From an uncultured Clostridia bacterium (GTDB taxonomy: Bacteria; Bacillota; Clostridia; Oscillospirales; Acutalibacteraceae), in assembly GCA_947589415.1 (NCBI GenBank), contig CANQBP010000003.1, positions 62,001 to 126,000 on the forward strand: a stretch of DNA of 64,000 nucleotides, written 5' to 3'. Below the pieces are notes generated by a model. That model was not told where the DNA came from, searched no databases, and worked only from the letters and a program-made list of their open reading frames with translations. Shown piece by piece: positions 2,244 through 36,185 of the stretch (within the stretch, counting starts at the first letter, position 1; each line of letters opens with the position of its first letter). The position numbers and the translations under genes were made by a program.

Positions 2244-3998
2244 ATGATAAAAAAGAAAATTCTTTCACTTTTGCTCGCAGGAGGTATGATGTCATCGGTT
2301 GTGCTTTGCGGCTGTTCGGGCAATAACAATAATACGCAGTCGGATACATCATCGGCTGCAGGCGGTTCCGCAACAACTGCCGGCACTACTCCTCTTCCGG
2401 AGGACGGCGGTTTTAAAACCGTATCATATGAGGCATCAAAGGATAAATATAGAACTTTTTATGAAATTTTTCCGTATGCCTACTATGATTCCGATGATGA
2501 CGGTATAGGCGACCTCAATGGCATTACTTCAAAACTCGATTACCTCAACGATGGCGATACCTCTACTACCGATGACCTCGGTGTTGAGGGAATTTGGCTT
2601 ATGCCGATTATGCCGTCACCGTCGTACCATAAGTATAATGTTTCCGATTACAAGAATATTGACCCGGCATACGGAAACCTCGATGATTTCAAAAAACTGG
2701 TTGAAGAATCACATAAGAGGAACATAAACGTTATTATTGATTTGGTTATTAACCACTCATCAAGACAGCATGAATGGTATCAAAACGCTATTAAGGAATT
2801 AGAACAGGGTAAAACCGACGGTTACGCCCAGTATTATCATTTTAAGGAAAATAACCAGGAGGCCGGTTGGCAGAAAGCAGGTGTGGGGGATTGGTATTAT
2901 GAGTGTCAGTTTGATGCCGATATGCCGGATCTCAACCTTACAAACGATAACCTTAGAAAGGAAATTGAGGATATTGTAAAATTCTGGCTTGATATGGGTG
3001 TTGACGGTTTCAGACTCGATGCCGTGTTGTGGTATGAAAGTACGGGAAATGATGATTCCGTGGCGGATCTGAAGTGGCTGTACGATTACGCAAAGACTGT
3101 TAAAGATGATGTTTACATGGTAGGCGAATGTTGGGACGGTGCCGGAACTATCTCTAATTTCTATAAATCCGGTGCAGACAGCTTTTTTGATTTCGCAGCG
3201 CAGGGACCGAGCGGAAGAGTATGCGATGCCGTTCGCTCCGAGGACGCACAAGGATATGTTAAATCTCTTGTCACATATGAGGACATGATAAAAAAGAATA
3301 ATAAAAACGCTATCAATGCACCGTTTATATCCAACCATGATACAAGCAGAAGTGCGAGCTTCCTTATGACGATGACATCTCAAAAAATGGCGGCGGCTAT
3401 GTATATGCTTTCTCCGGGTAATGCTTTTATTTATTACGGTGAGGAGATTGGTATGACCGGAGGTTCGGAAAATGACCCCGATAAGCGTACCGGTATGTAT
3501 TGGTCGGCAACGGATAAAAAAGGTTATGTGGAAAAAATTCCGGGCGCAAATAATAAAAACGTTCCCGATAAGGCTGTCGATGAGCAGCAAAAGGACGATG
3601 ATTCACTTTTGAGTTTCTACAAACGTGTTATTGCACTCAAAAACCAAAATCCCGAAATTGCAAGAGGCAGTCTGACCGCTGTAAATTCCGACAATAAAGC
3701 GATCGCCGGATATGTTTGCGATAATAACGGCTCGAAAGTTCTCGTTATATTTAATGCGGGTGAAAAAGCCGGTACGATAAATATTTCCGAGGACACCTTT
3801 AAGGTCAATGAAGTTCGCGGTTATGTTATTGCCGACACGGAGGAGGAAGGCCCCGGCAGCGGAGCTGCAAATATAGATGCTCTTCTTGGGGGCGGAAGCT
3901 CTAAAGAGAAGTCTGAGGAGGAAAAGGAAAGCGGAGAGTTTTTAGTAAACGGACAGGAAATAACTCTTCCGGCATATAGTGCAATCGTTCTCAAATAA
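2244..3998 (+). CDS. Lipoprotein alpha-amylase, glycoside hydrolase family 13
   Basis: Extracytoplasmic amylase, probably tethered to the membrane beside the maltodextrin importer. Residues 1-24 form a lipoprotein signal ending in the lipobox LCGC. A short Ser/Thr/Gly/Asn-rich spacer precedes the GH13 barrel (from about residue 65). Conserved regions are visible: DLVINHSS (region I), DGFRLDA with nucleophile Asp259, GECWDG with acid/base Glu295, and SNHD with Asp366. The calcium-type loop DSDDDGIGDLNG is present. The C-terminal beta domain carries an acidic, Ser/Glu-rich insertion near residues 535-570 before the last strand. The start is set by AAAGGAG 8 nt upstream. Together with the permeases it would trim maltodextrins at the cell surface; the exact specificity (amylase, neopullulanase or oligo-glucosidase) cannot be read from sequence. 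Confidence 0.9.
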   Translation: MIKKKILSLLLAGGMMSSVVLCGCSGNNNNTQSDTSSAAGGSATTAGTTPLPEDGGFKTVSYEASKDKYRTFYEIFPYAYYDSDDDGIGDLNGITSKLDYLNDGDTSTTDDLGVEGIWLMPIMPSPSYHKYNVSDYKNIDPAYGNLDDFKKLVEESHKRNINVIIDLVINHSSRQHEWYQNAIKELEQGKTDGYAQYYHFKENNQEAGWQKAGVGDWYYECQFDADMPDLNLTNDNLRKEIEDIVKFWLDMGVDGFRLDAVLWYESTGNDDSVADLKWLYDYAKTVKDDVYMVGECWDGAGTISNFYKSGADSFFDFAAQGPSGRVCDAVRSEDAQGYVKSLVTYEDMIKKNNKNAINAPFISNHDTSRSASFLMTMTSQKMAAAMYMLSPGNAFIYYGEEIGMTGGSENDPDKRTGMYWSATDKKGYVEKIPGANNKNVPDKAVDEQQKDDDSLLSFYKRVIALKNQNPEIARGSLTAVNSDNKAIAGYVCDNNGSKVLVIFNAGEKAGTINISEDTFKVNEVRGYVIADTEEEGPGSGAANIDALLGGGSSKEKSEEEKESGEFLVNGQEITLPAYSAIVLK

Positions 3999-21005: not shown

Positions 21006-21029
21006 TTGACCTTACGGGGTCAATTTTTT
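21006..21029 (+). terminator. Terminator-like hairpin in front of the phage module
   Basis: TTGACC (21006-21011) pairs with GGTCAA (21018-21023), directly followed by six T. It lies 34 nt upstream of the first phage gene, so it would insulate the module from upstream transcription or act as an attenuator. Confidence 0.55.
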
Positions 21030-21062
21030 CTGCTTTTTCCCCTACTGTTGAAAGGGGGTATG

Positions 21063-21593
21063 ATGTTGAACAAAAAAGAAAAAGGGCTTTCTTCGAGAGA
21101 AAAACAGTTTTGCTGCCTTTATGCCAACAGCGGGAATTTTAAAGAGGCAGCACTCCGTGCCGGTTTCGGTAATCCCGATAAAACGGGGGCGTCCCTTCTG
21201 TTGAGGGAAGATATAAACGACGAGATAGAAAGGATATATAAGTCCCGTACAAAAAATTACCGCCAAAGGGCAAGAGCAGGATATGAAAGGCTTGCCTTTG
21301 GAAATGTTTCTGATGCGGTAAGACTTATGTTTGACGATAATCCGTCGGAAAAAGCACTTGAATCCTATGATCTTTTCAATGTTGCCGAAATTAAAAGACC
21401 TAAAGACGGTGCAATGGAAATTAAGTTCTTTGACAGAATTAAGGCACTCGAAAAACTTGAATTTGCCGAAGAAAGCCAACAAAAGGGTGTATCGGATTTT
21501 TATAACGCTCTGATGGGGGGAATTAAAAATTCCGATAAGACAAGTAATGACTCCGCAGAAGGAGATGATGTTTCAAAGGAGGAAATTATTTGA
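21063..21593 (+). CDS. Phage terminase small subunit
   Basis: DNA-recognition subunit of the packaging motor. The N-terminal half has the helix-turn-helix pattern of this family: LSSREKQFCCLYANSGNFKE, then AALRAGFG and a second helix LLLREDINDEIERIY. The C-terminus is acidic. Two adjacent ATG codons follow AAAGGGGG; the second (21063) has the better spacing, giving 176 aa. It overlaps the large-subunit gene by 4 nt, and the pairing is the main support for the call. Confidence 0.85.
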   Translation: MLNKKEKGLSSREKQFCCLYANSGNFKEAALRAGFGNPDKTGASLLLREDINDEIERIYKSRTKNYRQRARAGYERLAFGNVSDAVRLMFDDNPSEKALESYDLFNVAEIKRPKDGAMEIKFFDRIKALEKLEFAEESQQKGVSDFYNALMGGIKNSDKTSNDSAEGDDVSKEEII

Positions 21594-22837
21594 AATTTAC
21601 GGCTTTTTCCGAAAAACAACTCAAATTGCTCAGGTGGTGGTGTGACAGCTCTGACGGGGCGGAGAGGGACGGTATTATATGTGACGGTGCAGTGAGGAGC
21701 GGTAAAACGTTGTGTATGAGCGTTTCGTTCGTTTCGTGGGCAATGCTTAATTTTGACGGCGGAAGTTTCGCCGTGTGCGGAAAGACTATACGTTCGGTCA
21801 AGAGAAATTTGGTCGTTCCTCTTATAAGCGTACTGACAGATCTGGGGTTTGATGTTAAAGACAAACTTTCGTCCAATATTCTTGAGGTGCAAATCGGAAA
21901 CAGAAAAAATATATTCTATCTTTTTGGGGGTAGAGATGAAGGCTCTGCCGCACTTATACAGGGTATAACACTTTGCGGAGTGCTTTTCGATGAGGCAGCA
22001 CTTATGCCGAGGTCTTTTGTTGAACAGGCTGTTGCAAGATGCTCCGTCGAGAGATCAAAGTTATGGTTTAACTGTAATCCCGAATATCCGCAGCATTGGT
22101 TCTGTACCGAGTGGGTAAAAAAGGCAAAGGAAAAAAATCTGCTGTATATGCATTTTACTATGGAGGATAATCCCTCTTTGTCAAAGTCTATGCTCAAACG
22201 TTACCAAAAACTGTATTCGGGGAGCTTTTATCAAAGATATGTTCTCGGAAAGTGGACTGCAACGGAGGGACTTGTATATCCGTTTATGTCGGACGGGAAA
22301 ATGCTTTATGATGTTCCCAAAAACGAATTTGATAATTTTGTTATTTCGTGTGACTATGGTACGGTAAATCCGTCATCTTTCGGCTTGTGGGGTCTTAGCG
22401 GAGGAATATGGTACAGAATCGGCGAATACTATTACAGCTCACGCAGAGAGGGAATCTCACGCACGGACGAAGAACATTACAAAGGGTTATGTGAACTTGC
22501 CGGTTCGAGAAAAATAGCCGAGGTTATCGTTGATCCGTCCGCCGCCAGCTTTATAGAAGTCATAAAAAGACACGGAAAGTTTAAGGTCACTGCCGCAAAG
22601 AATAATGTTACAGACGGAATAAGGCAGGTCAGTTGTGCGCTTAAACAGGGGGATATCAGAATTTGCAGATGCTGTACGGACTGCATAAGGGAGTTCGGTA
22701 TGTACCGTTGGGACAGCGGAGGCAGAGATTCACCGTTGAAAGAAAATGATCATGCTATGGACGATGTGAGGTATTTTGTTGCAACATTTCTGAACAGATA
22801 TGATGACAGTATATTTGCGTTTGCCTCCGAAAGATAA
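21590..22837 (+). CDS. Phage terminase large subunit (PBSX family)
   Basis: ATPase and nuclease that pumps and cuts DNA during head filling. The ATPase domain shows Walker A DGAVRSGKTLC and Walker B GVLFDEAALMP. The RNase H-like nuclease half begins FVISCDYGTVNPSSFGLW, has VIVDPSAASF, and ends near DHAMDDVRYF, which supplies the acidic residues of the family. Length 415 aa is complete. It starts at TTG after AAAGGAGG and overlaps the small subunit by 4 nt. Confidence 0.93.
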   Translation: MKFTAFSEKQLKLLRWWCDSSDGAERDGIICDGAVRSGKTLCMSVSFVSWAMLNFDGGSFAVCGKTIRSVKRNLVVPLISVLTDLGFDVKDKLSSNILEVQIGNRKNIFYLFGGRDEGSAALIQGITLCGVLFDEAALMPRSFVEQAVARCSVERSKLWFNCNPEYPQHWFCTEWVKKAKEKNLLYMHFTMEDNPSLSKSMLKRYQKLYSGSFYQRYVLGKWTATEGLVYPFMSDGKMLYDVPKNEFDNFVISCDYGTVNPSSFGLWGLSGGIWYRIGEYYYSSRREGISRTDEEHYKGLCELAGSRKIAEVIVDPSAASFIEVIKRHGKFKVTAAKNNVTDGIRQVSCALKQGDIRICRCCTDCIREFGMYRWDSGGRDSPLKENDHAMDDVRYFVATFLNRYDDSIFAFASER

Positions 22838-22865
22838 TATAACCTGAAGGAGAAGTGATAAAAAA

Positions 22866-24014
22866 TTGAGTCGGTTTAAGAATAAGAAAAACGGTTTTGC
22901 CGTGCAGACAGCGGGAAATGAGGATCATAAACACCCGTTCACCTGCATAAGGGATTACAGTCCGCTCGGCAGTTTTGAAAAAAATCTTTATCGCTCACTG
23001 AGAGAGTCTATTCCCGTAATTGATGCGGCGATATACAAAATAATTAGACTTGTCGGCAGTTTTAACGTAAAATGTTCCGACAGGCAGGCGGAAAGAAGTT
23101 TGAAAAACTTCCTCGAAAATGTAAGAGTCAACGGAATATCGTACGGGATCGACAGCTTTATTTCGCAATATCTTGAACAGCTGCTCACATACGGTACTGC
23201 CGTAGGGGAAATTGTACTCGGCGCGGACGGAAATATTGCCGCACTCTATAACAGCTCGCTTGATAATGTTGAGCTTAGCAGCGGTGTAAATCCTTTTGAT
23301 GTACATATTGAAACGATAGATGAAACCGGTACAAGGCAGCTTGTAAAATATCCCGAACTTATTTTGTGCAGCGTGATTATGCCCGAAGCGGGCAGGCTGT
23401 ACGGTACTTCCGTATTGAGAGGACTTCCGTTTGTGAGCGACATATTTTTGAAAATTATAAATGCCGTAGGTACAAACTGGGAGAGAGTCGGAAATGTGCG
23501 TTTTGCCGTTACATATAAACCGAATGAAAATGACAGGGGAAATACAAAAGAAAAAGCCATGATGATAGCATCCGAATGGAGCAAGGCAATGAAAAGCAGA
23601 GAACCGAGGGATTTTATTTCTGTCGGTGATGTCAGCATTAAGGCTATTGGCGCAGATAATCAAATACCTGACAGCGAAATTCCCGTGCGTCAGATACTCG
23701 AACAGATAGTGGCTAAGCTGTCCATTCCGCCTTTCCTGCTCGGACTTACATGGTCATCGACAGAAAGAATGTCCTCACAACAAGCGGATATCCTTACAAG
23801 CGAACTTGAATATTACAGACGTGTGCTTAATCAGAGTATAAGAAAAATATGCTGTACGTTTCTAAGACTCGGCGGTTTTGATGAGGATATGGAAATAGTA
23901 TGGGAAAATATAAATCTTCAAGACGAAGTCGAGCTTGCACAAGCCAGACTTTACAACGCTAAGGCTGAAGAAACGGAAAAACGTATAAAAAGGGAGAATG
24001 TATGTGGAAAATGA
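22866..24014 (+). CDS. Phage portal protein
   Basis: Forms the dodecameric DNA channel at the capsid vertex. The protein (382 aa) follows the terminase, as portals do. It has the helical wing and stem pattern, with SIPVIDAAIYKIIRLVGSF near the N-terminus and LSIPPFLLGL, then SSTERMSSQQADILTSELEY towards the C-terminus, segments typical of PBSX-type portals. The start is TTG, with AAGGAG about 11 nt upstream. Its last codons overlap the start region of the next gene. Confidence 0.82.
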   Translation: MSRFKNKKNGFAVQTAGNEDHKHPFTCIRDYSPLGSFEKNLYRSLRESIPVIDAAIYKIIRLVGSFNVKCSDRQAERSLKNFLENVRVNGISYGIDSFISQYLEQLLTYGTAVGEIVLGADGNIAALYNSSLDNVELSSGVNPFDVHIETIDETGTRQLVKYPELILCSVIMPEAGRLYGTSVLRGLPFVSDIFLKIINAVGTNWERVGNVRFAVTYKPNENDRGNTKEKAMMIASEWSKAMKSREPRDFISVGDVSIKAIGADNQIPDSEIPVRQILEQIVAKLSIPPFLLGLTWSSTERMSSQQADILTSELEYYRRVLNQSIRKICCTFLRLGGFDEDMEIVWENINLQDEVELAQARLYNAKAEETEKRIKRENVCGK

Positions 24015-24945
24015 AAGTAATAATCTGAAATCGGGCGAACTCGAACTTATCAACAGATATGCCAGACGAGCCTTGAGGGAAGATGAAGTGTATGTATTTT
24101 CTGTTGTTTTGTGCGATAACGAAATAGATAGAGATTTTGAAAAATTTTCCGATTTTTCATTGAAAAAATTGGAAAAACTGTTTATAGGGGTTACGGGGGT
24201 GCTTGACCATGACCCCAAGAGCAATAACCAAACCGCAAGGATATTTTCGTGCAAAGCGGAAAATGTGGCGGGGAAAAAAACATCGGACGGGCATCAGTAT
24301 ATCAGGCTTTCGGCAAGAGCGTATATGCCAAAAACCGAGGGCAATAAGGACTTTATTATGCAGCTTGACAGCGGTATAAAAAAGGAGGTAAGCGTAGGTT
24401 GTTCCGTGGCGAAAAAAATATGTTCTGTATGCGGGTGTGAAAACGGCTCGTGCGGACATATAAGAGGCAGAAAATACGACGGTGTTCTTTGCTATAAGAT
24501 ACTTGATGAACCTACCGATGCTTATGAATGGTCATTTGTCGCTGTACCGTCACAAAAGGCGGCAGGGGTTATTAAATCATATAAAAAAGGAGAGAACAAA
24601 TTGGATATTGAAAAAAGACTTTTCAGCGGTGAGGCGGAAACCTTTAGTGTTGATGAAATGAATATTATTGCGGAAAAATTCCGTGTGCTTCAGGAAAAGG
24701 CCGCCGACGGCGAGGCATACAGGAGAAAACTTGAGGCGGATATAAATAAACTTGCTGCATTTACTCTGCCTCAGCTTAAAAGAGATGTGCTGGATTTTAT
24801 TATCGGCAAAATGAGTGCTGTCCAGCTTGAGAACTTTAAAAAGGCTCTTTCCGAAAAAAAGGACAATAATGTTCCTGTTAAGCCGCAGCTTGCAGGAGCA
24901 GCGAAAAATGTGAGAATTGATAATAATGCTTTTAAAAATATTTGA
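24004..24945 (+). CDS. Putative phage prohead protease/scaffold with a zinc-ribbon insertion
   Basis: By position and pattern this combines a prohead protease and scaffold. The N-terminal half has VLCDNEIDRDFEKF, GVTGVLDHDP (candidate catalytic His) and KKEVSVGCSV (candidate catalytic Ser), as in XkdF-like proteases. A Cys/His cluster CSVCGCENGSCGH suggests bound zinc inserted right after the serine. From about residue 200 it becomes charged and helical with a coiled-coil look (EKFRVLQEKAADGEAYRRKL), as expected of scaffold. AAGGGAG is too close to the ATG at 23998, so GTG at 24004 is preferred, but either is possible. The catalytic assignment is inference. Confidence 0.65.
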   Translation: MENESNNLKSGELELINRYARRALREDEVYVFSVVLCDNEIDRDFEKFSDFSLKKLEKLFIGVTGVLDHDPKSNNQTARIFSCKAENVAGKKTSDGHQYIRLSARAYMPKTEGNKDFIMQLDSGIKKEVSVGCSVAKKICSVCGCENGSCGHIRGRKYDGVLCYKILDEPTDAYEWSFVAVPSQKAAGVIKSYKKGENKLDIEKRLFSGEAETFSVDEMNIIAEKFRVLQEKAADGEAYRRKLEADINKLAAFTLPQLKRDVLDFIIGKMSAVQLENFKKALSEKKDNNVPVKPQLAGAAKNVRIDNNAFKNI

Positions 24946-24957
24946 GGAGGATAATAT

Positions 24958-25290
24958 ATGAATGTTTCATTTAACGGCTTCGGGGAAAATGTTGCTACAT
25001 TTGAAACGGAGGGAAGTGTCAGTGCAGGTATTCCCGTTATGATATCGTCAAGCGGTAAGGTGAAGGCTGCAAACGGCGTATTTTGCGGAATATGTGTGGG
25101 GGAAAGAAACGGCTATGCTGCCGTTCAGCTCAGCGGTTATGTAAAGGCGGCGTTTGATACCGAACCCGCCGTAGGATATACAAAACTGATCGGAAAAAAC
25201 GGTAAGGTCAGTACAGATGAATCGTCCGGAAGAGAATACCTCGTTGCAGATGTGGATACGGCTGCAAAAACAGCGGGAATTATACTTTGA
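24958..25290 (+). CDS. Putative capsid decoration/head-stabilising protein
   Basis: A 110-residue, glycine- and serine-rich beta protein directly before the capsid gene. It has repeated strand patterns (SAGIPVMISSSGKVKAANGV, FCGICVGERNGYAAVQLSGY) like DUF2190-type or lambda gpD-like decoration proteins. GAGGAGGATAATAT precedes the ATG. The assignment rests on position, size and composition. Confidence 0.6.
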   Translation: MNVSFNGFGENVATFETEGSVSAGIPVMISSSGKVKAANGVFCGICVGERNGYAAVQLSGYVKAAFDTEPAVGYTKLIGKNGKVSTDESSGREYLVADVDTAAKTAGIIL

Positions 25291-25310
25291 TTTGAAAGGA
25301 GATTATTACT

Positions 25311-26321
25311 ATGGCATATTATGATACTATCAGACTCGAAAAGGGTATGTATGGCAACGGAACTAAATCTTTTACTCAAGTTCTTGAGGAACTTGATCCC
25401 TCGGAAAACTATAAGGGAAGTGAGCTTGAGGGACTTGATGCATATCAGCGTCAGCTTAAAAGATATGATATAAGAGTCGGAGGCGGAAACTCCGATTGTG
25501 TGCAGAAGTTTTTCCAAACCTCGGACAGCGCTGCTCTTTTTCCCGAATATGTGTCAAGAGCCGTGAAGCAGGGAATTGAAAGAGCCGATGTTCTTTCGGA
25601 TATTATTGCCGTTAAGACGATTATTGACGGTATGGATTACAGATCCGTGGTTTCTGCCCCGTCTGACGATGATAAACAGCTTAAACCCGTTGCTGAGGGA
25701 GCTTATCTCCCGCAGACTACTATCAAAACAAGCGGTCAGCTTGTTAAACTGCAAAAGAGAGGGCGAATGCTTGTAGCATCGTATGAGGCAATTAAGTTTC
25801 AAAAACTGGATCTCTTTACTGTTACATTAAGGCAGATAGGGGCACATATTGCCCGTGAACAGGTTAAGGACGCTGTTAATGTTCTTATAAACGGTGACTC
25901 CACAAGCGGGGCTGCGGGTACGGTTGCTTCGGCATCTTCGGGAAGTGTTTCGTATGGGGATCTTATAAAACTTTGGGCTGAAATTTCTCCGTATGAAATG
26001 AATACACTTCTTGCACCGACTACTGCTATGACAAAGCTGCTGTCAATGAGTGAAATGAAAGATTCCAATGCGGGACTGAATTTCCACGGAACCGGAAAAA
26101 TGATAACCCCGCTCGGTGCTAATCTTATACATATACCTTCCATTCCCGGAAATAAAATAGTGGGTCTTGATAAAAATTGTGCCCTTGAAATGGTGCAGTC
26201 GGGAGATGTTATTACAGATTACGATAAACTTATAGACAGACAGCTTGAAAGAGCTGCTATAAGCTGTATTACGGGCTTTGCAAAAATATTCCCGGACGCT
26301 GTTAAGGTACTTGCCGGCTGA
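25311..26321 (+). CDS. Phage major capsid protein
   Basis: Main shell protein, probably HK97 fold (336 aa). The N-terminus is helical and charged. The central region contains DMRS-like strands (IIDGMDYRSVVSAPS), a spine-helix region (FQKLDLFTVTLRQIGAHIAREQ) and a typical C-terminal domain (LGANLIHIPSIPGNKIVGLD, then DYDKLIDRQLERAAISCI). The strong site AAAGGAGATTATTACT before ATG suits high expression. Placement after protease and decoration genes agrees. Confidence 0.85.
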   Translation: MAYYDTIRLEKGMYGNGTKSFTQVLEELDPSENYKGSELEGLDAYQRQLKRYDIRVGGGNSDCVQKFFQTSDSAALFPEYVSRAVKQGIERADVLSDIIAVKTIIDGMDYRSVVSAPSDDDKQLKPVAEGAYLPQTTIKTSGQLVKLQKRGRMLVASYEAIKFQKLDLFTVTLRQIGAHIAREQVKDAVNVLINGDSTSGAAGTVASASSGSVSYGDLIKLWAEISPYEMNTLLAPTTAMTKLLSMSEMKDSNAGLNFHGTGKMITPLGANLIHIPSIPGNKIVGLDKNCALEMVQSGDVITDYDKLIDRQLERAAISCITGFAKIFPDAVKVLAG

Positions 26322-26336
26322 TTGGGGGAATAACGG

Positions 26337-26702
26337 TTGAATATAGAGGAGATAATCAGAATATTCTGCCGTCTGTCAGGTTTGGATTGTGAGGAAGCGG
26401 TTGATTTTCGTTTTATGTGTGATACGGCATTGAGCTATATTTTATCAAGGATAAAAGCCGGTACCGATATAAAGTGCTATGGCGGCAGAATCAATTTTGC
26501 CGCCGCCGCCCTTGCATACTACCGATATGTTTTATGGAGTCTTACGGACGGAGTGGTAAATGAAGTTAAAGTCGGGGATATAAGCGTTAAGCATGAAAAA
26601 ATCAGCGAACTTAATGCTGCCGATAAACTTTGCAGAGAGGCTTTTTCCGATTTAAAGGATATACTCACAAACGACGATTTTGTATTTAATTCATTTAATT
26701 GA
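26337..26702 (+). CDS. Putative head-tail connector (gp6-like)
   Basis: A 121-residue largely helical protein following the capsid gene, where phages encode the portal adaptor. The pattern IIRIFCRLSGLDCEEA, then MCDTALSYILSRIKAG fits adaptor-type connectors. TTG start after GGGGGAATAACGG. Assignment is mainly from gene order. Confidence 0.55.
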   Translation: MNIEEIIRIFCRLSGLDCEEAVDFRFMCDTALSYILSRIKAGTDIKCYGGRINFAAAALAYYRYVLWSLTDGVVNEVKVGDISVKHEKISELNAADKLCREAFSDLKDILTNDDFVFNSFN

Positions 26703-26718
26703 CACATCGGGGGCGGAT

Positions 26719-27045
26719 ATGAAAAAAATAATTGAGAAGGCTATTGAAAATCTGGGGGAAGTTTGCTGTATAAACGGAAAAAAAGGGTATGCGGTAATTA
26801 TGCCCGTAAGATATTCCTATAAGACAGACGGCGGAGTGGAATCACTTCCTGACGGAAGAGGAGATCCCGAAAAATATTTTATCTATTGTAATGCCGAGTC
26901 GGCAAGGGACATACACTATGGGAATATTGTCAGTGGAAGTGAAAATGCATACTATGTACTGTGGAGCGATGAAGTGAAAAGCCGTTATGGGGATTATGTC
27001 AAAATCTGTGCAAGAAAAATTAAAAGGGGGGACGGATATATATGA
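26719..27045 (+). CDS. Putative head-closure protein (XkdH-like)
   Basis: A 108-residue strand-rich protein (KGYAVIMPVRYSYKTDGGVE, then YFIYCNAESARDI) between connector and tail-completion genes, the place of head-closure or XkdH-type proteins. GGGGGCGG lies just before the ATG at 26719; an earlier in-frame codon at 26680 is inside the previous gene. Its stop overlaps the next start in ATGA. Confidence 0.5.
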   Translation: MKKIIEKAIENLGEVCCINGKKGYAVIMPVRYSYKTDGGVESLPDGRGDPEKYFIYCNAESARDIHYGNIVSGSENAYYVLWSDEVKSRYGDYVKICARKIKRGDGYI

Positions 27046-27443
27046 CGTTTGCGTCTGAAATGTATTTCAAGGCTTTGAAAGACCATGCTTTTTCGGAAAT
27101 GCAGCCGGTACTTGAACGGCAGGCGGGAGTTCTTCCCTTCCCGATAGAAAAACCTTATGTCAGCTTCGGGACAGAAAGTGAAAGCGGCGAATATCTTTTA
27201 GGAAGTGACGGCGGCATGGTTGCCAATGAAATAATGACTGTAAATGTTGCCGTCAGCGAGGAAACCAATGAAAATTATTGCAGAGAATGTGCAAGAAATG
27301 CTGCCCTTGCAATTATTTCTCTTGATACGGAAAAAAGAATTATTTCCGTGTCAGCGGAAAACTGTAAATATAATTCTGCGGCGGGGGTCTATGTTGTAAA
27401 AATAAAATTCGGACTTCGTGAGGTGAGAAAAAGCGGGGGGTGA
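27042..27443 (+). CDS. Putative tail terminator/completion protein
   Basis: A 133-residue alpha/beta protein (MYFKALKDHAFSEMQPVLER, then IMTVNVAVSEETNENYCREC and VVKIKFGLREV). Size and position match tail-completion proteins that cap the tube. The ribosome site GGGGGGACGG lies upstream and the start overlaps the preceding stop by 4 nt. No catalytic motif is expected. Confidence 0.5.
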   Translation: MTFASEMYFKALKDHAFSEMQPVLERQAGVLPFPIEKPYVSFGTESESGEYLLGSDGGMVANEIMTVNVAVSEETNENYCRECARNAALAIISLDTEKRIISVSAENCKYNSAAGVYVVKIKFGLREVRKSGG

Positions 27444-27446
27444 TCG

Positions 27447-27833
27447 ATCATATATACTGAACAAGAGAGCGTATGCGGCAGAGATGTAAACATATATATC
27501 GACGGAAAAAAGCTGCTTCAGGTCGAAAGCATGGAAATACGAAAAAAATCGGAAATACACAATGTACGCTCATGCTTTGTCGGGGAAGATATTGCGCATA
27601 TAAGAAAAAGGTGCGTTTATAAGGCGGTTATGACAGGAATTTGTTTTAAGAAACCTTTTGAAAATTGCTGCTTTGCAGATCTTGATAATTTTACCATGAC
27701 CGTGGAAATAGACAAAAAGAGATACATTCTCGGCAACTGTATGTGGGACGATTTCTATGCGGCAGCAGACAGGGAAAAATTCAGAGAACATATCAGCGTT
27801 ATTGCTATGAATATGAGAACGGAGGATATATGA
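27447..27833 (+). CDS. Putative tail-tube-like protein with a non-ATG start (ATC or ATA)
   Basis: The coding frame clearly extends upstream of the first Met at 27531. Residues RDVNIYIDGKKLLQVESMEI continue the strand pattern without a stop back to 27441, yet no ATG, GTG or TTG is available. The best start is ATC (27447) or ATA (27450), placed 5-8 nt after GGGGGG. The product, about 128 aa, is strand-rich (FTMTVEIDKKRYILGNC) and resembles small phage tube or neck proteins of the XkdM/gp19 type in pattern only. A mutated start codon or a sequencing error would be the alternative. Confidence 0.55.
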   Translation: MIYTEQESVCGRDVNIYIDGKKLLQVESMEIRKKSEIHNVRSCFVGEDIAHIRKRCVYKAVMTGICFKKPFENCCFADLDNFTMTVEIDKKRYILGNCMWDDFYAAADREKFREHISVIAMNMRTEDI

Positions 27834-27985
27834 TTGAAACTGATGTTAAACTGACAGATGATATGGCTGCCGAAATCGGAAAGGATAAGACGGCAGAATT
27901 GAGAAATATATCGGAAATGTTAAGGTGCGATATGTTGAGGTATAATAAAATTCTTAATGCCGAGGAGGAGATAAATGAGGACTGA
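27830..27985 (+). CDS. Small phage protein of unknown function (51 aa)
   Basis: Short acidic helical protein (MIETDVKLTDDMAAEIGKDK). Its ATG follows GGAGGATAT and overlaps the stop of the previous gene (ATGA), and its end overlaps the next gene by 11 nt, so it is translated in the chain. It sits where contractile phages encode a tail assembly chaperone and tape measure, and may be the remnant or functional replacement of those genes. Confidence 0.6.
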   Translation: MIETDVKLTDDMAAEIGKDKTAELRNISEMLRCDMLRYNKILNAEEEINED

Positions 27986-28496
27986 CGAAAAAATGAGCTA
28001 CAAAAGCTATGTGTTTCCCGTTAATCCTTCATTGATAAAAATAAGTCATGAGAGAAAAATAGCTAAGGCATCGGTTTTTGACGGATACGATATAGTAAAC
28101 GATATGGGCGGATCATACAGGATCATTAGCGGGGAAGGTGAATTTTTCGGCAGCCGTTGTGTCGAGGATTTTCTTGCACTTAAATCCGTTATGGACAGCG
28201 GCGGCGGGGGAATGCTTTATCTTCCCTCGCAAAAGCCCATATATGCCGTGTTTGAACAGCTTGAAATGACAGCGCAGGATATACAGGGGGTAATAAAATA
28301 TAAATTCAAATTCATTGAGAGTTTTGAAAAACACCGTCAAGAGCGTTTTTTGTACTGCTATGGCAACGGTAGGGATTGTTTGTGGGATATTTCATATAAG
28401 TACTGTGTGAATATTGATATTCTTACGGAGCTTAATCCTAATATAAAAAGACCGGATATACCGATATTTCCGTGGGAGAAGGTGAAACTGTGCTGA
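27975..28496 (+). CDS. Baseplate protein with C-terminal LysM domain (XkdP-like)
   Basis: 173 aa. The N-terminal 115 residues are strand-rich (YVFPVNPSLIKISHERKIAK). The C-terminal 45 form a LysM-type fold (NGRDCLWDISYKYCVNIDIL, then TELNPNIKRPD). PBSX XkdP has the same order: tail protein plus LysM next to the hub gene. LysM binds peptidoglycan or stabilises the tail assembly. The ribosome site is GAGGAGGAGATAA. Confidence 0.72.
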   Translation: MRTDEKMSYKSYVFPVNPSLIKISHERKIAKASVFDGYDIVNDMGGSYRIISGEGEFFGSRCVEDFLALKSVMDSGGGGMLYLPSQKPIYAVFEQLEMTAQDIQGVIKYKFKFIESFEKHRQERFLYCYGNGRDCLWDISYKYCVNIDILTELNPNIKRPDIPIFPWEKVKLC

Positions 28497-29407
28497 AATA
28501 TTTACTTACTGATGTCAATAAAATTCAAACGGAATTGAGAAATCCTCTTAGTATGAGTATTGTTTCATCGGAAGATGCGCCTGCCGACAGCTTTAGAGCT
28601 GTGTTTGCCGTTAGCGGAAGTATTCCGGAATTATATTCCGTAAAGGTCAGCAGCGGTTCGGAGGTAATATTTTTCGGTTTTGTAGATGAGCAAAGCGAAA
28701 CCGCTGCGGGTGACGGAATACTGCTTGAGGTTACTGCCAGAGGCCCTGAAGCGTTATTGTTGGATAATGAGGCACTTCCGCAAACTTATTGTATGCCTAC
28801 TATGAAGATATTGTTTGAAAGACATTTTAAATCGCTGGGATTTGCCGGGGTCGAGGGAGGAGAAAAGGCATTTCCGGGGGATCTTGTTATTTCAAAGGGA
28901 ATGAGTGAGTGGCAGGTTTTGAGTGACTACTGTGAGAAATTCTGTAAGAGCAAACCGTTTGTCAGAAGTGATATGGTTATAGAAACAGGCGAAAACCACA
29001 AGCCGGATACGATTTATTTGGGCGGGAATAATTCGTTCATAAAAATTCGCAGAACATTAAAACGCTGTATGCCTGTGTCGGATATATATGTCAGAACCTA
29101 TAACGCAGGAAAGTATGAGATGTATTTCGGAAATGAAACTGCGGAAAAACATAAAATAATACGAAAAAGGTATTTTAATTGTGCGGACAGCAAATACAGG
29201 TCTGTTCTTTATGCCGATAATATTATAAAAAATTCTAACAGAAAATATGAGAGTTATGATATAGATGCAGGGGGGATTATCGGCTGCCGTGTGGGGGATA
29301 TACTGAAACTGGAAAACAGGCGCAGGGAAATGATAATAAACGAACTTCACTATATTTTGGACAGTAAGGGAGAACATACAAGAATTTATGCGGAGGTGAT
29401 TGTATAA
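28490..29407 (+). CDS. Baseplate hub protein (XkdQ/gpD-like)
   Basis: 305-residue structural hub protein. The order of beta domains, with an early SSGSEVIFFGFVDEQSETAA, then LLLEVTARGPEALLLDNE-like strands and a mid-helix SEWQVLSDYCEKFCKSKPFV, matches XkdQ/gp27-type hubs. The ATG-less 5' end is resolved by GAAGGTG 5 nt before GTG at 28490, which overlaps the preceding stop. It ends overlapping the spike gene by one base. Confidence 0.7.
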   Translation: MLKYLLTDVNKIQTELRNPLSMSIVSSEDAPADSFRAVFAVSGSIPELYSVKVSSGSEVIFFGFVDEQSETAAGDGILLEVTARGPEALLLDNEALPQTYCMPTMKILFERHFKSLGFAGVEGGEKAFPGDLVISKGMSEWQVLSDYCEKFCKSKPFVRSDMVIETGENHKPDTIYLGGNNSFIKIRRTLKRCMPVSDIYVRTYNAGKYEMYFGNETAEKHKIIRKRYFNCADSKYRSVLYADNIIKNSNRKYESYDIDAGGIIGCRVGDILKLENRRREMIINELHYILDSKGEHTRIYAEVIV

Positions 29408-29745
29408 TGTGGATATCAAAAAATATAATCGAACGCTCCGGCGTGGGGACAGCAGCATCGGGCGTGGTAGGAAACAGTGCAAATTTGAGGGTCTCTGCCA
29501 CATCGGGATACGGTATCGAAAAATGTGCCATGATTACACCGCCGGGGATATACAGTATTCCTACGGGCAGACAGCCGCTGGTTGTGCTTCAGACGCAGAA
29601 CGGCCCTGTTTGTATAGGAATGCGAATGGGTACATATTACGGAAATATTGAACCGGGAGAAATTGTATTACAATCACACGGCGGGGCGCAAATCAGGCTC
29701 TCCAATGACGGCAAGGTATATATAAACGGCAGGGAGGTTGAATGA
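29407..29745 (+). CDS. Baseplate spike/assembly protein (gpV-like OB fold)
   Basis: A 112-residue protein with an OB-fold pattern (SGVGTAASGVVGNSANLRVS, then GRQPLVVLQTQNGPVCIGM) and a short beta-helix-like tail (GEIVLQSHGGAQIRLSNDGK). Together these resemble compact membrane-piercing spikes of the gpV/gp5.4 class. It lies between hub and gp25 homologues, as expected. Confidence 0.65.
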   Translation: MWISKNIIERSGVGTAASGVVGNSANLRVSATSGYGIEKCAMITPPGIYSIPTGRQPLVVLQTQNGPVCIGMRMGTYYGNIEPGEIVLQSHGGAQIRLSNDGKVYINGREVE

Positions 29746-29746
29746 T

Positions 29747-30082
29747 ATGGATATGTCGCTGAATGTTAGCGGAGATTTTGATACCGATATTCTCGGCAGA
29801 CCGTATGAAATCGACGGAACGGAGGAAATTCTGCAAAAGGTATATATAAGTTTATCGGCACACGGGGAATGTTTTATATATGACCGTGATCTTGGGGGGC
29901 AACTGTATAAAACGGATATTTCTTCGGAAAATGCCGAGAAAATGCTTTATGCCCGTGCAAAGGACTTGACGGAAAATATCACGGGTGCTGAAATTTGCGG
30001 AATAGAAATAAGAAACGGGGATACGTATGCCGTGGTTAGCATAGAGGGTAAAAATTATGATGTTGCCTTGAGGAGGGGTTGA
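29747..30082 (+). CDS. Baseplate wedge protein, gp25/XkdS-like
   Basis: A 111-residue protein containing the sequence start of gp25-type wedges (DTDILGRPYEIDGTEEILQK). This is followed by a small alpha/beta domain with NAEKMLYARAKDLTENITGA. GGGAGG lies 10 nt before the ATG at 29747; a TTG nine nt upstream is an alternative. In contractile systems gp25 joins hub and wedges and seeds the sheath, yet no sheath gene is present. Confidence 0.72.
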   Translation: MDMSLNVSGDFDTDILGRPYEIDGTEEILQKVYISLSAHGECFIYDRDLGGQLYKTDISSENAEKMLYARAKDLTENITGAEICGIEIRNGDTYAVVSIEGKNYDVALRRG

Positions 30083-30083
30083 G

Positions 30084-31139
30084 TTGGCGTACAGTTATAA
30101 TGAAATACTTGAAAGAATGGAAAATAAATACCGTGAGCTGTCGGGACATGAGGCTGCGGAATGTGGGGATATAGGGATAAGATTAAAACTTCTTGCGGGG
30201 GAGCTTTATTCTTTGGGAAACAATATGGATTGGCTTAAAAGGCAGATGTTTTTCACTACTGCTACGGGAGAACAGCTCGATATGTATGCGATGCAGAGAG
30301 GTATTAAAAGAATAAGAGGAAACAAGGCAAGCGGTGAGTTGGCAATTGTACTTGATACTCCGCTTGACTATGATATGGATGTTCCTAAGGGTACGGTTTG
30401 TACAACAGCGGACGGAGGACTTAATTTTGTTATAGATGAAACCACAACGATAAAAAAGGGTACTGCAAGGACGATATGTCACGCCTGTGCCGAGCATAGC
30501 GGAAAGAAGTATAATGTCAAGAGGGGTTATATCACCACGATGGTTACATATTTTTCCGTGGGAATGTACCTTGAAAATGCAAGCGTATTTTCGGGAGGTA
30601 CGGACGATGAAAGTGATGACGAATTGAGGGAAAGAATAGCCGAAAGCTACAAAAATATATCAAACGGAGCAAATACGGCATATTATAAAAATCTTGTTGA
30701 GAGTATTGACGGGGTTCAGTCGTGTGCCGTTATTGAGAGCAAGGCGGATAATAGTGTCACCTCGATTTACGTTGCCGGCAGGGGCGGATTATGTACATCA
30801 AATTGCCTTTCAAAGGTGGCGGAGGCGATAAAAACGGGAAAATGTATGGGTGAAACCGTTAATGTTTTAAATGCGAAAACGGCTGCTTATAATGTTAGTG
30901 TCAAAATAGAGGTCAAACCCGGTTATGTTGGGGATAAAGTAATTGAAAGTGTTGAGGAGAACATAAAAAATTATTTTAATTCGCTGCGTGTGGCACAAAA
31001 GGTAATTCTCGCAGAAATAGGACGTGTTCTTATGGATACCGATGGTGTTGAAAATTATACTTTTAGTAATATGCAGGACGGAAATGCTGACGAATCGGTA
31101 CTTATGGTTTTGGGCAGTATGAATGTGAGTATAATGTGA
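30084..31139 (+). CDS. Baseplate J-like protein (XkdT)
   Basis: 351-residue wedge protein. The N-terminal segment GDIGIRLKLLAGELYSLGNN, then TATGEQLDMYAMQRGIKR is typical of baseplate J/XkdT proteins. The central GGTDDESDDELRERIAESYK and NGANTAYYKNLVESIDGVQS blocks are the family's best conserved part. It starts at TTG after GAGGAGGGG and is followed directly by the gpI-like gene. Confidence 0.9.
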   Translation: MAYSYNEILERMENKYRELSGHEAAECGDIGIRLKLLAGELYSLGNNMDWLKRQMFFTTATGEQLDMYAMQRGIKRIRGNKASGELAIVLDTPLDYDMDVPKGTVCTTADGGLNFVIDETTTIKKGTARTICHACAEHSGKKYNVKRGYITTMVTYFSVGMYLENASVFSGGTDDESDDELRERIAESYKNISNGANTAYYKNLVESIDGVQSCAVIESKADNSVTSIYVAGRGGLCTSNCLSKVAEAIKTGKCMGETVNVLNAKTAAYNVSVKIEVKPGYVGDKVIESVEENIKNYFNSLRVAQKVILAEIGRVLMDTDGVENYTFSNMQDGNADESVLMVLGSMNVSIM

Positions 31140-31149
31140 GGTGAGAGGT

Positions 31150-31617
31150 TTGAGTGAGTTTGAAATGATGTCCGAAAGGCTTTTGCAGACAGGTCTGTAC
31201 GATATATCCGAGGGCAGTATGATATATGCCGAAATTATGGCGTATGCGGCAGGATTGGATCTTTATTTTGACGAGCTTGAGCGTATCAGAAGTGAGATTT
31301 TCTTTGATATTTCGGAAGGGAGTGAGCCGGGAATATTTGAAAGGCTGGTTTCCGTATGTAATACCGATAAATCCCCCGAAGGCAGAAGAAAAAGTATAAT
31401 GAGCGCACTTTCCGTGACTAACAAGGATTTTACACTTGAGGGAATGAAAAAAATAATGGGGATATATAACATAGACGGTGATATTAGCGAGCAGGACGGA
31501 AATATTATTATAAACTGCAAAAATAAACTCAGTGAGGGTGAGGAGAAAGCAATTAACGAGAATATACAGCGATTTGCACCGCTGCATAAAAAGATTTATG
31601 TATTCGGTGCAGCATAG
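31150..31617 (+). CDS. Tail protein gpI/YmfQ-like (XkdU)
   Basis: A 155-residue protein with the YmfQ/DUF2313 pattern: helical N-terminus (SEGSMIYAEIMAYAAGLDLY), then RRKSIMSALSVTNKDFTLEG and a C-terminal ferredoxin-like domain. It is the usual last baseplate gene before tail fibres; here a terminator follows instead, so no fibre is encoded. A GTG at 31141 is possible, but GAGGTG spacing favours TTG at 31150. Confidence 0.75.
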   Translation: MSEFEMMSERLLQTGLYDISEGSMIYAEIMAYAAGLDLYFDELERIRSEIFFDISEGSEPGIFERLVSVCNTDKSPEGRRKSIMSALSVTNKDFTLEGMKKIMGIYNIDGDISEQDGNIIINCKNKLSEGEEKAINENIQRFAPLHKKIYVFGAA

Positions 31618-31636: not shown

Positions 31637-31665
31637 AGGACTGTCCGTCAAAAACGGACAGTCCT
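31637..31665. terminator. Bidirectional terminator at the right edge of the phage module
   Basis: A perfect 12-bp stem, AGGACTGTCCGT with its complement, and a 5-nt loop. The minus-strand exit is TTTTTGTTG, the plus-strand exit TAAACTTTTT. It serves both the phage operon and the convergent starch-binding gene. Confidence 0.88.
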
Positions 31666-31695: not shown

Positions 31696-32508
31696 TCAGT
31701 TCTTGGAAGAAGCCTTTTTAGTCATAACAACAGCAGTACCGAGAGATGCAAGAACAACAGCTACAAGAGCAATAGCAGATGTTGTATCACCTGTTGCGGG
31801 AGTTGCCGTGTCCTTATCCTGTGTTGTATCAGCAGGTGCTGAAGGTGTTTCAGCAGGTGTCGATTCAGCAGGTGTCGATTCAGCAGGAGCTTCTGTTGAA
31901 GGCTCTTCTGAAGACTCCTCGGTTGCAGCGCCGCCTGCGGGTGTTACTACGAGATCCTTAACACCGCCTGCGAGAAGAGTGAAGTCGGGATCAGCATCCT
32001 CTTCAACTTCTTCTGCCTCAATTGCGAGGGGATCGTTCTTGTTTGTGTCAAGATATGCTGTGAAAGAAACGTGGTCGCCTACCTTTACCTGATCACCGGG
32101 GATACCGTAGTTGTACTGGCTGTTGTATGCGCCGTTCTTACCGTCGTAGTTGCCCCAGCTATCTGTCCAGTCGTTGTTTGTACGAATCTTAAACTGGATA
32201 CCCGTTCCCTCAGGAGCAGGCTTGCCGTCGCAAGTCCAGTCGGTGATGTAACCGTCAACTACGTCAAACTCTACCTTAGCTTCCCAGATGCCTGTGGACT
32301 CGTTGTAGGTCATGGGGATATCAGCACCGGCTTCCCAACCGCCTGCAGCGAGGTCGCCTGTGAATATACCGCATACACCCATCTGGACTGACGAATTCTT
32401 GAGTTCGTCAACATTTGTCAATGCAGAAGCACCGAAAGCTGCAGAAGCAGCCAAAGAAGCAACGAGTGCCGAGCAAACAGCTACTTTAAGTACTTTTGAA
32501 TTTCTCAT
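31696..32508 (-). CDS. Cell-wall-anchored starch-binding-type protein (270 aa)
   Basis: Secreted surface protein. It has a signal peptide (residues 1-30, cut near ASA), then one domain (about 40-165) with MGVCGIF, GWEAGADIPMT, GIWEAKVEF and FKIRTNNDWTDSWGNYD. The same pattern occurs twice in the 608-aa protein at 34359. It recalls SusE/Sas20-like alpha-glucan-binding beta-sandwiches, with Trp residues as likely sugar platforms. A Ser/Thr/Glu/Pro linker (about 195-240) leads to a sortase-like signal TPATGD, a hydrophobic segment and a Lys-rich tail. Starch binding is inferred from the domain similarity and the neighbourhood. It has a consensus-like promoter. Confidence 0.75.
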   Translation of the reverse strand: MRNSKVLKVAVCSALVASLAASAAFGASALTNVDELKNSSVQMGVCGIFTGDLAAGGWEAGADIPMTYNESTGIWEAKVEFDVVDGYITDWTCDGKPAPEGTGIQFKIRTNNDWTDSWGNYDGKNGAYNSQYNYGIPGDQVKVGDHVSFTAYLDTNKNDPLAIEAEEVEEDADPDFTLLAGGVKDLVVTPAGGAATEESSEEPSTEAPAESTPAESTPAETPSAPADTTQDKDTATPATGDTTSAIALVAVVLASLGTAVVMTKKASSKN

Positions 32509-34358: not shown

Positions 34359-36185
34359 ATGCAAACAAAGAAGATTATCAGTATTGCTTTGACAGCTGCT
34401 CTTGTCAGCTCGGTTGCTGCTGTTGCTACACTGACAGCATCTGCTGTTGACCCTCTGCCGGCTGATTTTACAAAGGCGAATCTCGAAGGTCACACAATGG
34501 GTATTTGTGGAACAGTCAACGAGTGGGGCAGTGCGGGTGTTGATATCCCGATGACTGATCCTGATGGTGACGGAATTTATGTCGGTATGACTGCTCTTCC
34601 GAACGGTGATTCTCAGTATAAGATTCGTCTTGACAATGATAGTGGTTGGAGTTACAACTGGGGTGCCTATGAAGAGGACAATGATCGTACATTTGACAGC
34701 CAGACCAACTGCACTGCAACTGTAGCTGGTGAATCAGCAGACCTTATTCTTGCACTTGATACGACATCTAACGCAGACGCTAATGTTTGGGATGTTATTA
34801 ACAAAACATCAGAAAATGCTACGTTGAGTGCATACAGCATTGTGGGTTCACCCACAGGTTGGGCAGCAGGTGCTGATATTCCGATGTATGAACTCAAAGA
34901 GGGCAAGTATGTCGGCATAATCAAGGGTGCAACTGATTCGGTTATTGACGATGTAGGCACTATGGGTGTATCATTCAAGGTTAGAGATACTCAGGGCGGC
35001 ACAATTGAGTGGAATGATACCAACAGTTGGGGTGTATATGAGGCTGATCATGATCGTACGCAGAACAGCCAGACTAATTGCATTGTTCAGCTTGGCGAAG
35101 GAGTTACGGCGAATATCGTTGTTGAGTTTGATACAACCGGTGAAGATCCAGCTATCTGGCCCCTTTCTTACACAGTTGTAAATGCTAACACTCAGGAAAT
35201 AATTGAGAGCAAGTATACAGGCAGCACGGCATCCGATGAGTCTTCAACAGAAGAACCCTCAACAGACGAGCCTTCAACTGATGAACCGTCAACAGACGAG
35301 CCTTCAGTTGACGAGCCTTCAGCAGACGAGCCTTCAGCAGATGAACCGAGTGAGCCTTCACTTGGCGACAACTATGAAACACAAATTTCAGACTACATCT
35401 TCTATGATAATAGTGAAACACAGTGGACAACAGTACACGCTCATTGGTGGAATTCCGACTATACAAAGATAGTTGACCTTGAGGGTAATCTTTGGCCGTC
35501 AGCGCCGCTTGATGCAGACGGCAACCAAGACTTCGGCAATGCATGGCCGGGAACAGAAATGACTCAGATCCCCGGTACTGACATTTGGCAGGCAAGAGTA
35601 CCGTTTGGCGCAACAAAGATTGTTTTCAACAATGGTATGACTGATGATGAAGCAGCTGCTATTGATGATGCAGCAGTTCAGGCAATAGCTGACGGTGATA
35701 AGAGTATTGCAGCATTGTCGGCAGCAGGTGTTGCTATGCAGACCGGTGACCTTGAATTCGATTCAACAGCTAATGCAGGTCAGGTTTATAAGATCGATTT
35801 GGCAACAGAACCGACAAGCGCACGTGGTCAGTGGAAGAACAAAAAGTGGACATTCGGTGCAGGTGCATGGGACGCTTATACAGGTCTGTACACTTCCGAA
35901 TTACTTAATGAGGTTACTGTAAGCGGAGATCCTTCGGTTGGCGACGAACCCACAGAGCCCAGCGGCACAAATCCCGGCGGTAGCTCAACACCCGGCGGAA
36001 GCACAGGTACAACACCCGGCGGAAGCACAGGTACAACACCCGGCGGAAGCACAGGTACAACACCCGGCGGCACAGGTACAGCTCCTCAGACAGGCGATGC
36101 AACAGTTCCCGCAGTATTTGCAGTAATAGCTGTTGCAGCTCTCGGTGTAGTTCTTGTAGCTGCAAAGAAGAAAGAAAGAGCTTAA
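34359..36185 (+). CDS. Multidomain cell-wall-anchored starch-binding protein (Sas20-like architecture)
   Basis: Secreted surface protein that probably holds starch at the cell. Signal peptide 1-30. Two copies of a beta-sandwich domain follow, about residues 45-150 and 155-285, each with a GADIPM/GVDIPM motif, FKVR/YKIR, a Trp-x-x-x-WG pair and SQTNC. A Glu-Pro-Ser-Thr-Asp repeat linker (288-330) leads to a CBM26-like domain (about 340-505; WTTVHAHWWNSD, KIVFNNGMTDDEA). A Gly-rich linker of perfect 8-residue repeats ends in sortase-like APQTGD, a membrane helix and KKKERA. The domain order resembles R. bromii Sas20 (recalled). No catalytic module or dockerin is seen. Confidence 0.82.
   Translation: MQTKKIISIALTAALVSSVAAVATLTASAVDPLPADFTKANLEGHTMGICGTVNEWGSAGVDIPMTDPDGDGIYVGMTALPNGDSQYKIRLDNDSGWSYNWGAYEEDNDRTFDSQTNCTATVAGESADLILALDTTSNADANVWDVINKTSENATLSAYSIVGSPTGWAAGADIPMYELKEGKYVGIIKGATDSVIDDVGTMGVSFKVRDTQGGTIEWNDTNSWGVYEADHDRTQNSQTNCIVQLGEGVTANIVVEFDTTGEDPAIWPLSYTVVNANTQEIIESKYTGSTASDESSTEEPSTDEPSTDEPSTDEPSVDEPSADEPSADEPSEPSLGDNYETQISDYIFYDNSETQWTTVHAHWWNSDYTKIVDLEGNLWPSAPLDADGNQDFGNAWPGTEMTQIPGTDIWQARVPFGATKIVFNNGMTDDEAAAIDDAAVQAIADGDKSIAALSAAGVAMQTGDLEFDSTANAGQVYKIDLATEPTSARGQWKNKKWTFGAGAWDAYTGLYTSELLNEVTVSGDPSVGDEPTEPSGTNPGGSSTPGGSTGTTPGGSTGTTPGGSTGTTPGGTGTAPQTGDATVPAVFAVIAVAALGVVLVAAKKKERA
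35987..36070 (+). repeat. Three perfect 24-bp tandem repeats in the linker coding region
   Basis: A 24-bp unit repeats at 35987, 36011 and 36035 with a partial fourth copy, encoding Gly-Gly-Ser-Thr-Gly-Thr-Thr-Pro. Identity at the DNA level indicates recent expansion, and the linker length is likely variable between strains. Confidence 0.9.

Follow-up and report, generated by a model that had tools for sequence, protein, structure and literature searches.

What does a compact set of phage head and baseplate genes do in a bacterial chromosome when almost nothing lies between the two? The question is raised by a block at positions 21060-31617 of the window, a 64,000-nucleotide stretch (positions 62,001 to 126,000, forward strand) of contig CANQBP010000003.1 from an uncultured Clostridia bacterium of the family Acutalibacteraceae. 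We consider it fairly probable that the block is part of a domesticated, vertically inherited and dispersed element with a minimal tail, similar to gene transfer agents (GTAs), a function that we infer. The nearest published case is FpGTA, the GTA of Faecalibacterium prausnitzii. Among the features by which GTAs are recognised, we found intact terminase, portal and capsid genes, a cluster free of integration and excision genes, chromosomal inheritance and purifying selection.

The initial annotation, made from the letters alone, had described seventeen closely spaced and uninterrupted plus-strand genes, running from terminase to baseplate without sheath, tape-measure, lysis or integration genes. 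All seventeen frames are indeed open and tightly packed, from the terminase small subunit (TerS, 21060) to baseplate I (31617), with a tRNA-Pro gene on one side and a converging gene on the other, and the phage gene set is present in a single copy in the genome of the window. The families of the block proteins were searched with PHROG and Pfam. The matches are clear for TerS, the terminase large subunit (TerL), portal, capsid and Baseplate_J, and they likewise support a virion structural role for the small protein encoded ahead of the capsid gene. The hub (E 4e-6) and the LysM protein (just under the cut-off) matched weakly, and gp25 more weakly (E 0.02, below the cut-off). The three connectors and the I-like protein matched no named family; their assignment follows from gene order and from homologues that contractile relatives carry. 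The label of protease for the protein between portal and capsid is given by position only, since the matching PHROG is of unknown function. TerL contains GAVRSGKT, which we take to be a Walker-A-like motif. No sheath, tape-measure, lysis or integrase family was found among the 17 genes; for a tape measure, the block has neither room nor a family match, and no profile search for it was made elsewhere in the genome. The features are as follows.

21006-21023, plus strand: leader palindrome TTGACC-N6-GGTCAA with T-tract, 26 nt before GAAAGG; common to unlinked operons in relatives
21060-21593, plus strand: TerS (PF03592, PHROG 2606/51)
21590-22837, plus strand: TerL (PF03237, phrog_2); full length in 36 of 37 genus loci
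22866-24014, plus strand: portal (phrog_30703, 444 bits; PF04860 below cut-off)
23998-24945, plus strand: head maturation protease candidate, by position (phrog_16951, family of unknown function)
24958-25290, plus strand: small virion structural or head decoration-like protein (phrog_4588); in 34 of 37 genus loci
25311-26321, plus strand: major capsid protein (PF25209, phrog_3922)
26337-26702, plus strand: connector 1, head-tail adaptor-like, by position and homologues
26719-27045, plus strand: connector 2, stopper-like, by position and homologues; N terminus uncertain
27042-27443, plus strand: connector 3, tail terminator-like, by position and homologues
27447-27833, plus strand: tail tube homologue, 128 aa, by genus hidden Markov model (HMM) and alignment with contractile relatives
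27830-27985, plus strand: 51-aa protein of unknown function; in 32 of 37 genus loci
27975-28496, plus strand: LysM-containing tail protein (LysM E 4e-4); kept in contractile relatives
28490-29407, plus strand: baseplate hub (phrog_177)
29407-29745, plus strand: spike-like protein, named by position and in the initial annotation (phrog_25991, of unknown function)
29738-30082, plus strand: gp25, sheath-initiator-like (PF10934); in 31 of 37 genus loci
30084-31139, plus strand: baseplate J (PF04865, 145 bits; phrog_6)
31141-31617, plus strand: baseplate I-like, last gene, by position; in 33 of 37 genus loci
31637-31665, no strand assigned: terminator-like hairpin of 12-13 pairs between the phage operon and the converging gene, with the better T-run on the minus strand

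Is this arrangement an accident of one strain? Of 60 other genomes in the genus, 59 gave a match to a capsid query, with a 33-residue fragment in G040 and pieces or a part in G028 and G059, and the query also matched 3 of 38 genomes from other families of the order. Forty loci of relatives were fetched, 37 of them from the genus, and all 37 have the same sheathless layout and the gene order from terminase to baseplate I that had been read in the window. Since the layout recurs in every one of these loci, it is not due to chance. At the cut-offs used, 13 genes are present in 36 or all of the 37, while gp25 was not detected in six, the 51-aa protein in five, I in four and the small head protein in three; L055 ends at its contig end inside the hub. 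Frame damage is rare: TerL in L060 and I in L030 are split, a stop shortens the portal in L033, and five loci have a short gp25.

The ratio of nonsynonymous to synonymous substitution rates (dN/dS) was computed by NG86 for 8 pairs and 17 genes, two pairs lacking the small head protein. The finite values range from 0.026 to 0.466, every one below 0.5 and none near 1, with the reservation of a high dS and of saturation in a few values. The capsid (0.03-0.07) and the tube (0.05-0.11) are at the low end, and the 51-aa protein and gp25 have the highest values. The module, with hub, J and I included, is maintained by purifying selection, in agreement with the early proposal that intact frames reflect selection.

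Trees of head and tail proteins were compared with a GlnS host tree over 34 genomes. The Spearman correlations are 0.81 and 0.85, and 0 of 999 permutations reached as high; 19 (head) and 15 (tail) of 31 splits are common with the GlnS tree, against a random mean below 0.3, and the module trees recover 12 of 17 well-supported host splits. The module is therefore vertically inherited with the chromosome, its phylogeny within the genus following the host gene. Distances to host genes are similar in close relatives: capsid gene and glnS are about 20.4 kb apart in G021 and 20.8 kb in the window, and capsid gene and gltX 18.7 kb in G024 and 18.65 kb in the window. The module flanks vary between subclades of the genus. 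The block is compact, forms a capsid and brings no replication genes, which could suggest a phage satellite or helper-dependent element; however, the lack of an integrase among the 17 genes, the single copy and the phylogeny tracking the host make such an element very unlikely.

The initial annotation had left two possibilities, a neat internal deletion of a prophage or a functional stripped particle. The second is favoured, and a recent deletion is rejected by the 37 loci that are alike, by dN/dS far below 1, by the agreement of the module trees with the host tree and by the sheath profile. That profile found no match in 64 genus genomes, of which 26 are of good quality and many are incomplete, and it matched 6 of 6 sheath-bearing control genomes, two of them not used in building it. 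Close relatives thus show no full, sheathed prophage, whereas some related genera keep the sheath. A prophage decaying after an internal deletion would account for the disappearance of the sheath, chaperone-like and tape-measure-region genes relative to contractile relatives, yet the same state in all genus loci, frames that are full-length with few exceptions and the low dN/dS render this explanation hardly credible.

What, then, is left of the tail? The initial annotation had noted only a 128-aa and a 51-aa frame where sheath and tape measure are expected. Both are indeed missing, but the tube is kept: on profile and alignment evidence, the 128-aa frame at 27447-27833 is a homologue of the tail tube in contractile relatives. 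Of 22 sheath-bearing IMG/VR loci, 21 have their tube frame matched, at 22-51 bits, by an HMM built from genus sequences alone. An alignment of 20 sequences, contractile relatives included, is full-length with five invariant columns at an identity of only 16-25%. In a PDB profile search, solved tail tubes rank first (best E 0.009), followed by asparaginases; since half of the profile was built from contractile relatives, the PDB matches count as weak support. The tube frame has no ATG, GTG or TTG start in the window and begins in frame just past the TGA of connector 3 (27441-27450). By eye, connector 3 and tube form one frame in L172, L169, L102 and L081, and connector 2 and tube are fused in L158 and L183.

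Homologous clusters with a sheath exist in related genera. The contractile relatives, from the same bacterial family and from IMG/VR (e.g. L212, L217, L188, L234, L233 and L265), have homologous head, connector, tube, LysM, hub, gp25, J and I genes in the same general order. They differ by an extra sheath of about 345 aa (Pfam-confirmed in L212) and, in most cases, by one or two further frames without a family (75-290 aa), which separate tube from LysM at the place expected for chaperone and tape measure. The distance from capsid to LysM is bimodal, 0.8-1.9 kb versus 3.2-6.8 kb, and the extra room in the long-distance group holds the sheath (PF04984/PF17482 in L212), the tube and at least one unnamed frame. 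In six contractile relatives (L193, L195, L199, L201, L202 and L204), the portal and the protease candidate stand after the capsid gene, not before it.

Beyond the genus, a capsid profile matched 229 of 398 family genomes (82 of 135 genera). In a second family it matched 89 of 197 genomes, which belong to 60 of 125 genera, a few of these matches being weak or fragments. Almost always there was a single match per genome. Four genomes of about 0.7-0.9 Mb in the second family (G865, G882, G949 and G962) retain the capsid gene. Forty genus representatives were drawn from the best-scoring family matches listed, with more divergent genera outside the sample: four have a sheath, 21 are sheathless with a baseplate, and 15 show no baseplate, 12 of these being covered for at least 9.5 kb downstream and the other three ending sooner. 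The 12 well-covered representatives keep terminase, portal and capsid. A sheath is present in 26 of 80 IMG/VR loci. On a tree of 67 tips, 18 of them scored as lacking a baseplate (three being loci that end early), sheath presence takes 6 changes and baseplate loss 6, compared with minima of 10 and 12 over 200 shuffles. These sequence comparisons suggest that the contractile tail was probably reduced long ago by several losses on different lineages, which is the direction we infer.

This distribution bears on two other uses of such a particle. A PBSX-like particle would pack host DNA and kill neighbours rather than deliver it; baseplate and spike-like genes are kept, relatives carry unlinked fibre and lysis genes, and the parts of PMC12946183 covered leave killing open for the Faecalibacterium element. 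However, the sheath, part of the contractile killing machinery, was found in none of the 64 genus genomes, and the 12 well-covered representatives lost the baseplate genes and still kept terminase, portal and capsid, so that we regard a killing particle as unlikely. Alternatively, the capsid might serve another purpose, such as DNA export or storage without injection, with the mini-tail as a plug. Only head and connector genes stand at the locus in many genera, in line with that purpose, and a J profile found nothing in 13 of 15 head-only genomes, some of them incomplete. The same search gave distant matches on other contigs in the remaining two and matched 3 of 3 baseplate-bearing controls, and a baseplate moved elsewhere in head-only genomes was rejected on this basis. 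Against a capsid of other purpose, hub, J and I are under purifying selection in this genus and fibre-like operons of relatives carry the same leader as the block; we deem it quite unlikely.

Five unannotated "Bacteriophage sp." records from human faeces also contain capsid and portal genes of this family; one of 46.7 kb looks otherwise chromosome-like by eye in the 41 kb read. These records may stem from the virus-like-particle study PMC8361208.

If the block is one part of a dispersed GTA-like element, where are the other parts? In nearly all genus loci, TerS is preceded by a leader block made up of a palindrome (TYGACC-N6-GGTCRA), usually a T-tract, and then TGAAAGG. A strict pattern of this leader gave 48 matches in 24 of 30 genus genomes, and a reversed-pattern control none in the 30. 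The matches comprise 17 TerS leaders (13 re-read, three placed by fetched-locus coordinates, and G007:C55 presumed, about 4.5 kb before the capsid gene), three opposite-strand reads and 28 other sites. Twenty of these 28 precede fibre-like, lysis or replisome-organiser genes: nine stand before short BppU-like and fibre-like genes (names by eye, with no family match in three tested), six before holin and/or endolysin genes, and five before phage replisome organisers (L331, L337, L366, L367 and L328). Pfam and PHROGs gave Phage_holin_4_1, r1t holin, GH25, Amidase_3, Phage_rep_org_N and a DnaC-like loader on examples, and three operons (L363, L365 and L368) bring together a BppU-like gene, a 240-aa protein, holin and endolysin. 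The early statement that lysis genes are lacking therefore holds for the cluster but not for relatives, where unlinked holin, endolysin and fibre-like operons carry the same leader. Of 58 sites, 54 gave a measured distance between palindrome and GAAAG, which is exactly 26 nt in 40 of them and within 25-27 nt in 48. Three TerS leaders did not match the rule, one site had no spacing, and some off-values arose where the search word landed elsewhere.

A plain terminator is not favoured for the leader, as palindrome and spacing persist without the T-tract, e.g. in L040, L037 and L057; a regulated RNA hairpin is possible. In other genera, both arms differ jointly: TTGCAT-N6-ATGCAA lies upstream of TerS in 9 of 48 loci printed as short upstream stretches (L082, L086, L090, L098, L102, L118, L126, L134 and L229). 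Judged from these sequences, the layout was retained with other arms, as would follow from a shift in the recognised sequence. One complete leader block, TGAAAGG included, occurs at L333 (G041:C157) upstream of a transporter-like gene, and no phage gene was recognised in its vicinity.

Two candidates for further parts in the genome of the window were rejected. A holin and a BppU-like gene at the start of contig C18 belong to an ordinary siphophage tail module (L392, 284-6712) with a tape measure of 796 aa, Dit, a tail protein, the BppU-like protein and holin, where tape measure, Dit and holin were named by PHROGs and a leader scan found no palindrome. A GH25 gene on C1 is a lone gene among host genes.

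How does the element compare with known systems? PBSX of Bacillus subtilis is likewise domesticated, packs host DNA, as is proposed for the present element, and follows the head and baseplate gene order of Firmicutes contractile phages (general knowledge, and remarks in PMC12946183). It differs in its contractile tail, which has a sheath and a tape measure, and in its linked lysis genes, none of which this block encodes. The alphaproteobacterial GTAs, RcGTA among them, are similar in their dispersed, host-regulated genes in several loci (general knowledge; abstract of PMC7296036), but by general knowledge they have a siphovirus-like tail with tape measure, another host and another regulation.

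The closest likeness is to FpGTA, compared here by its published description (PMC12946183, 2026), the one paper of direct relevance among those that the literature searches listed. According to the sections covered, FpGTA forms 40-nm capsids without visible tails. Its structural operon measures about 10.5 kb, and a second locus carries the baseplate, fibre, holin and endolysin genes; random host DNA is packed at 8.4-8.9 kb in Faecalibacterium and at 4.6 kb in Ruminococcus callidus, for which those sections name no Ruminococcus operon. Both structural operons contain TerS, TerL, portal and capsid, and unlinked loci with fibre-like, holin and endolysin genes stand in several relatives within the genus, none being seen in the about 0.8 Mb examined of the window's own genome. 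The structural operon of FpGTA, however, has ten frames against seventeen here; its baseplate gene is in the second locus, while hub, spike-like, gp25, J and I stand in the structural operon here, and the passages covered describe no leader element.

How might such an element work? A contractile ancestor would have lost the sheath, chaperone and tape-measure region. The shared leader would turn all operons on together in few cells, and TerS and TerL would package host chromosomal DNA into a small capsid. Since there is no sheath or tape measure, the tube would stay short, presumably one or few rings long, and the baseplate would sit almost on the neck, much like a podovirus tail. Fibres from the unlinked operons would bind the target cell, the LysM, spike and hub part would open the wall, and holin and endolysin would release the particles. 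The element would perhaps pass bacterial DNA between cells.

Several points weigh against a GTA-like element of this kind. Packaging and particles in the genus are predicted from genes, and the sheath-initiator-like gp25 is kept without a sheath. One genus genome (G011) gave no capsid match. In the family, 169 of 398 genomes gave none either, including 98 of the 288 of good quality, so the element is dispensable or replaced there. Nothing recognisable follows eight of the 28 other leader sites, some of which stand before a transporter gene or at contig ends, and the gene names at leader sites were given by eye, with seeds taken from the same sites. A GTA does not usually include replisome organisers, and those seen here may be prophage genes under the same leader. 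In the genome of the window itself, the strict pattern scan found only the TerS leader, and no leader-headed fibre or lysis operon was seen in about 0.8 Mb examined of 2.29 Mb.

A broader picture can be offered tentatively, and we hold it possible rather than probable. A GTA family would span two large gut Clostridia families, its contractile tail worn down repeatedly to head-only forms. In this genus it would comprise several loci, for structure, fibres, lysis and replisome organisers, the last of which may amplify host DNA ahead of packaging. One palindromic leader, bound by a regulator whose specificity drifted between genera, would unite them all.

The block is a candidate for the operon behind the packaging of DNA that was reported from Ruminococcus-type gut bacteria, and the leader provides a sequence tag for locating other parts of such systems. 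With the natural series from contractile tail to no tail, it becomes directly testable how small a tail can be for a particle that delivers DNA.

Downstream of the block, the window encodes two secreted-looking proteins (31696-32508 and 34359-36185) that by eye resemble starch-binding proteins. Together with an alpha-amylase-family gene at 2244-3998, they suggest that the host may be a starch degrader.

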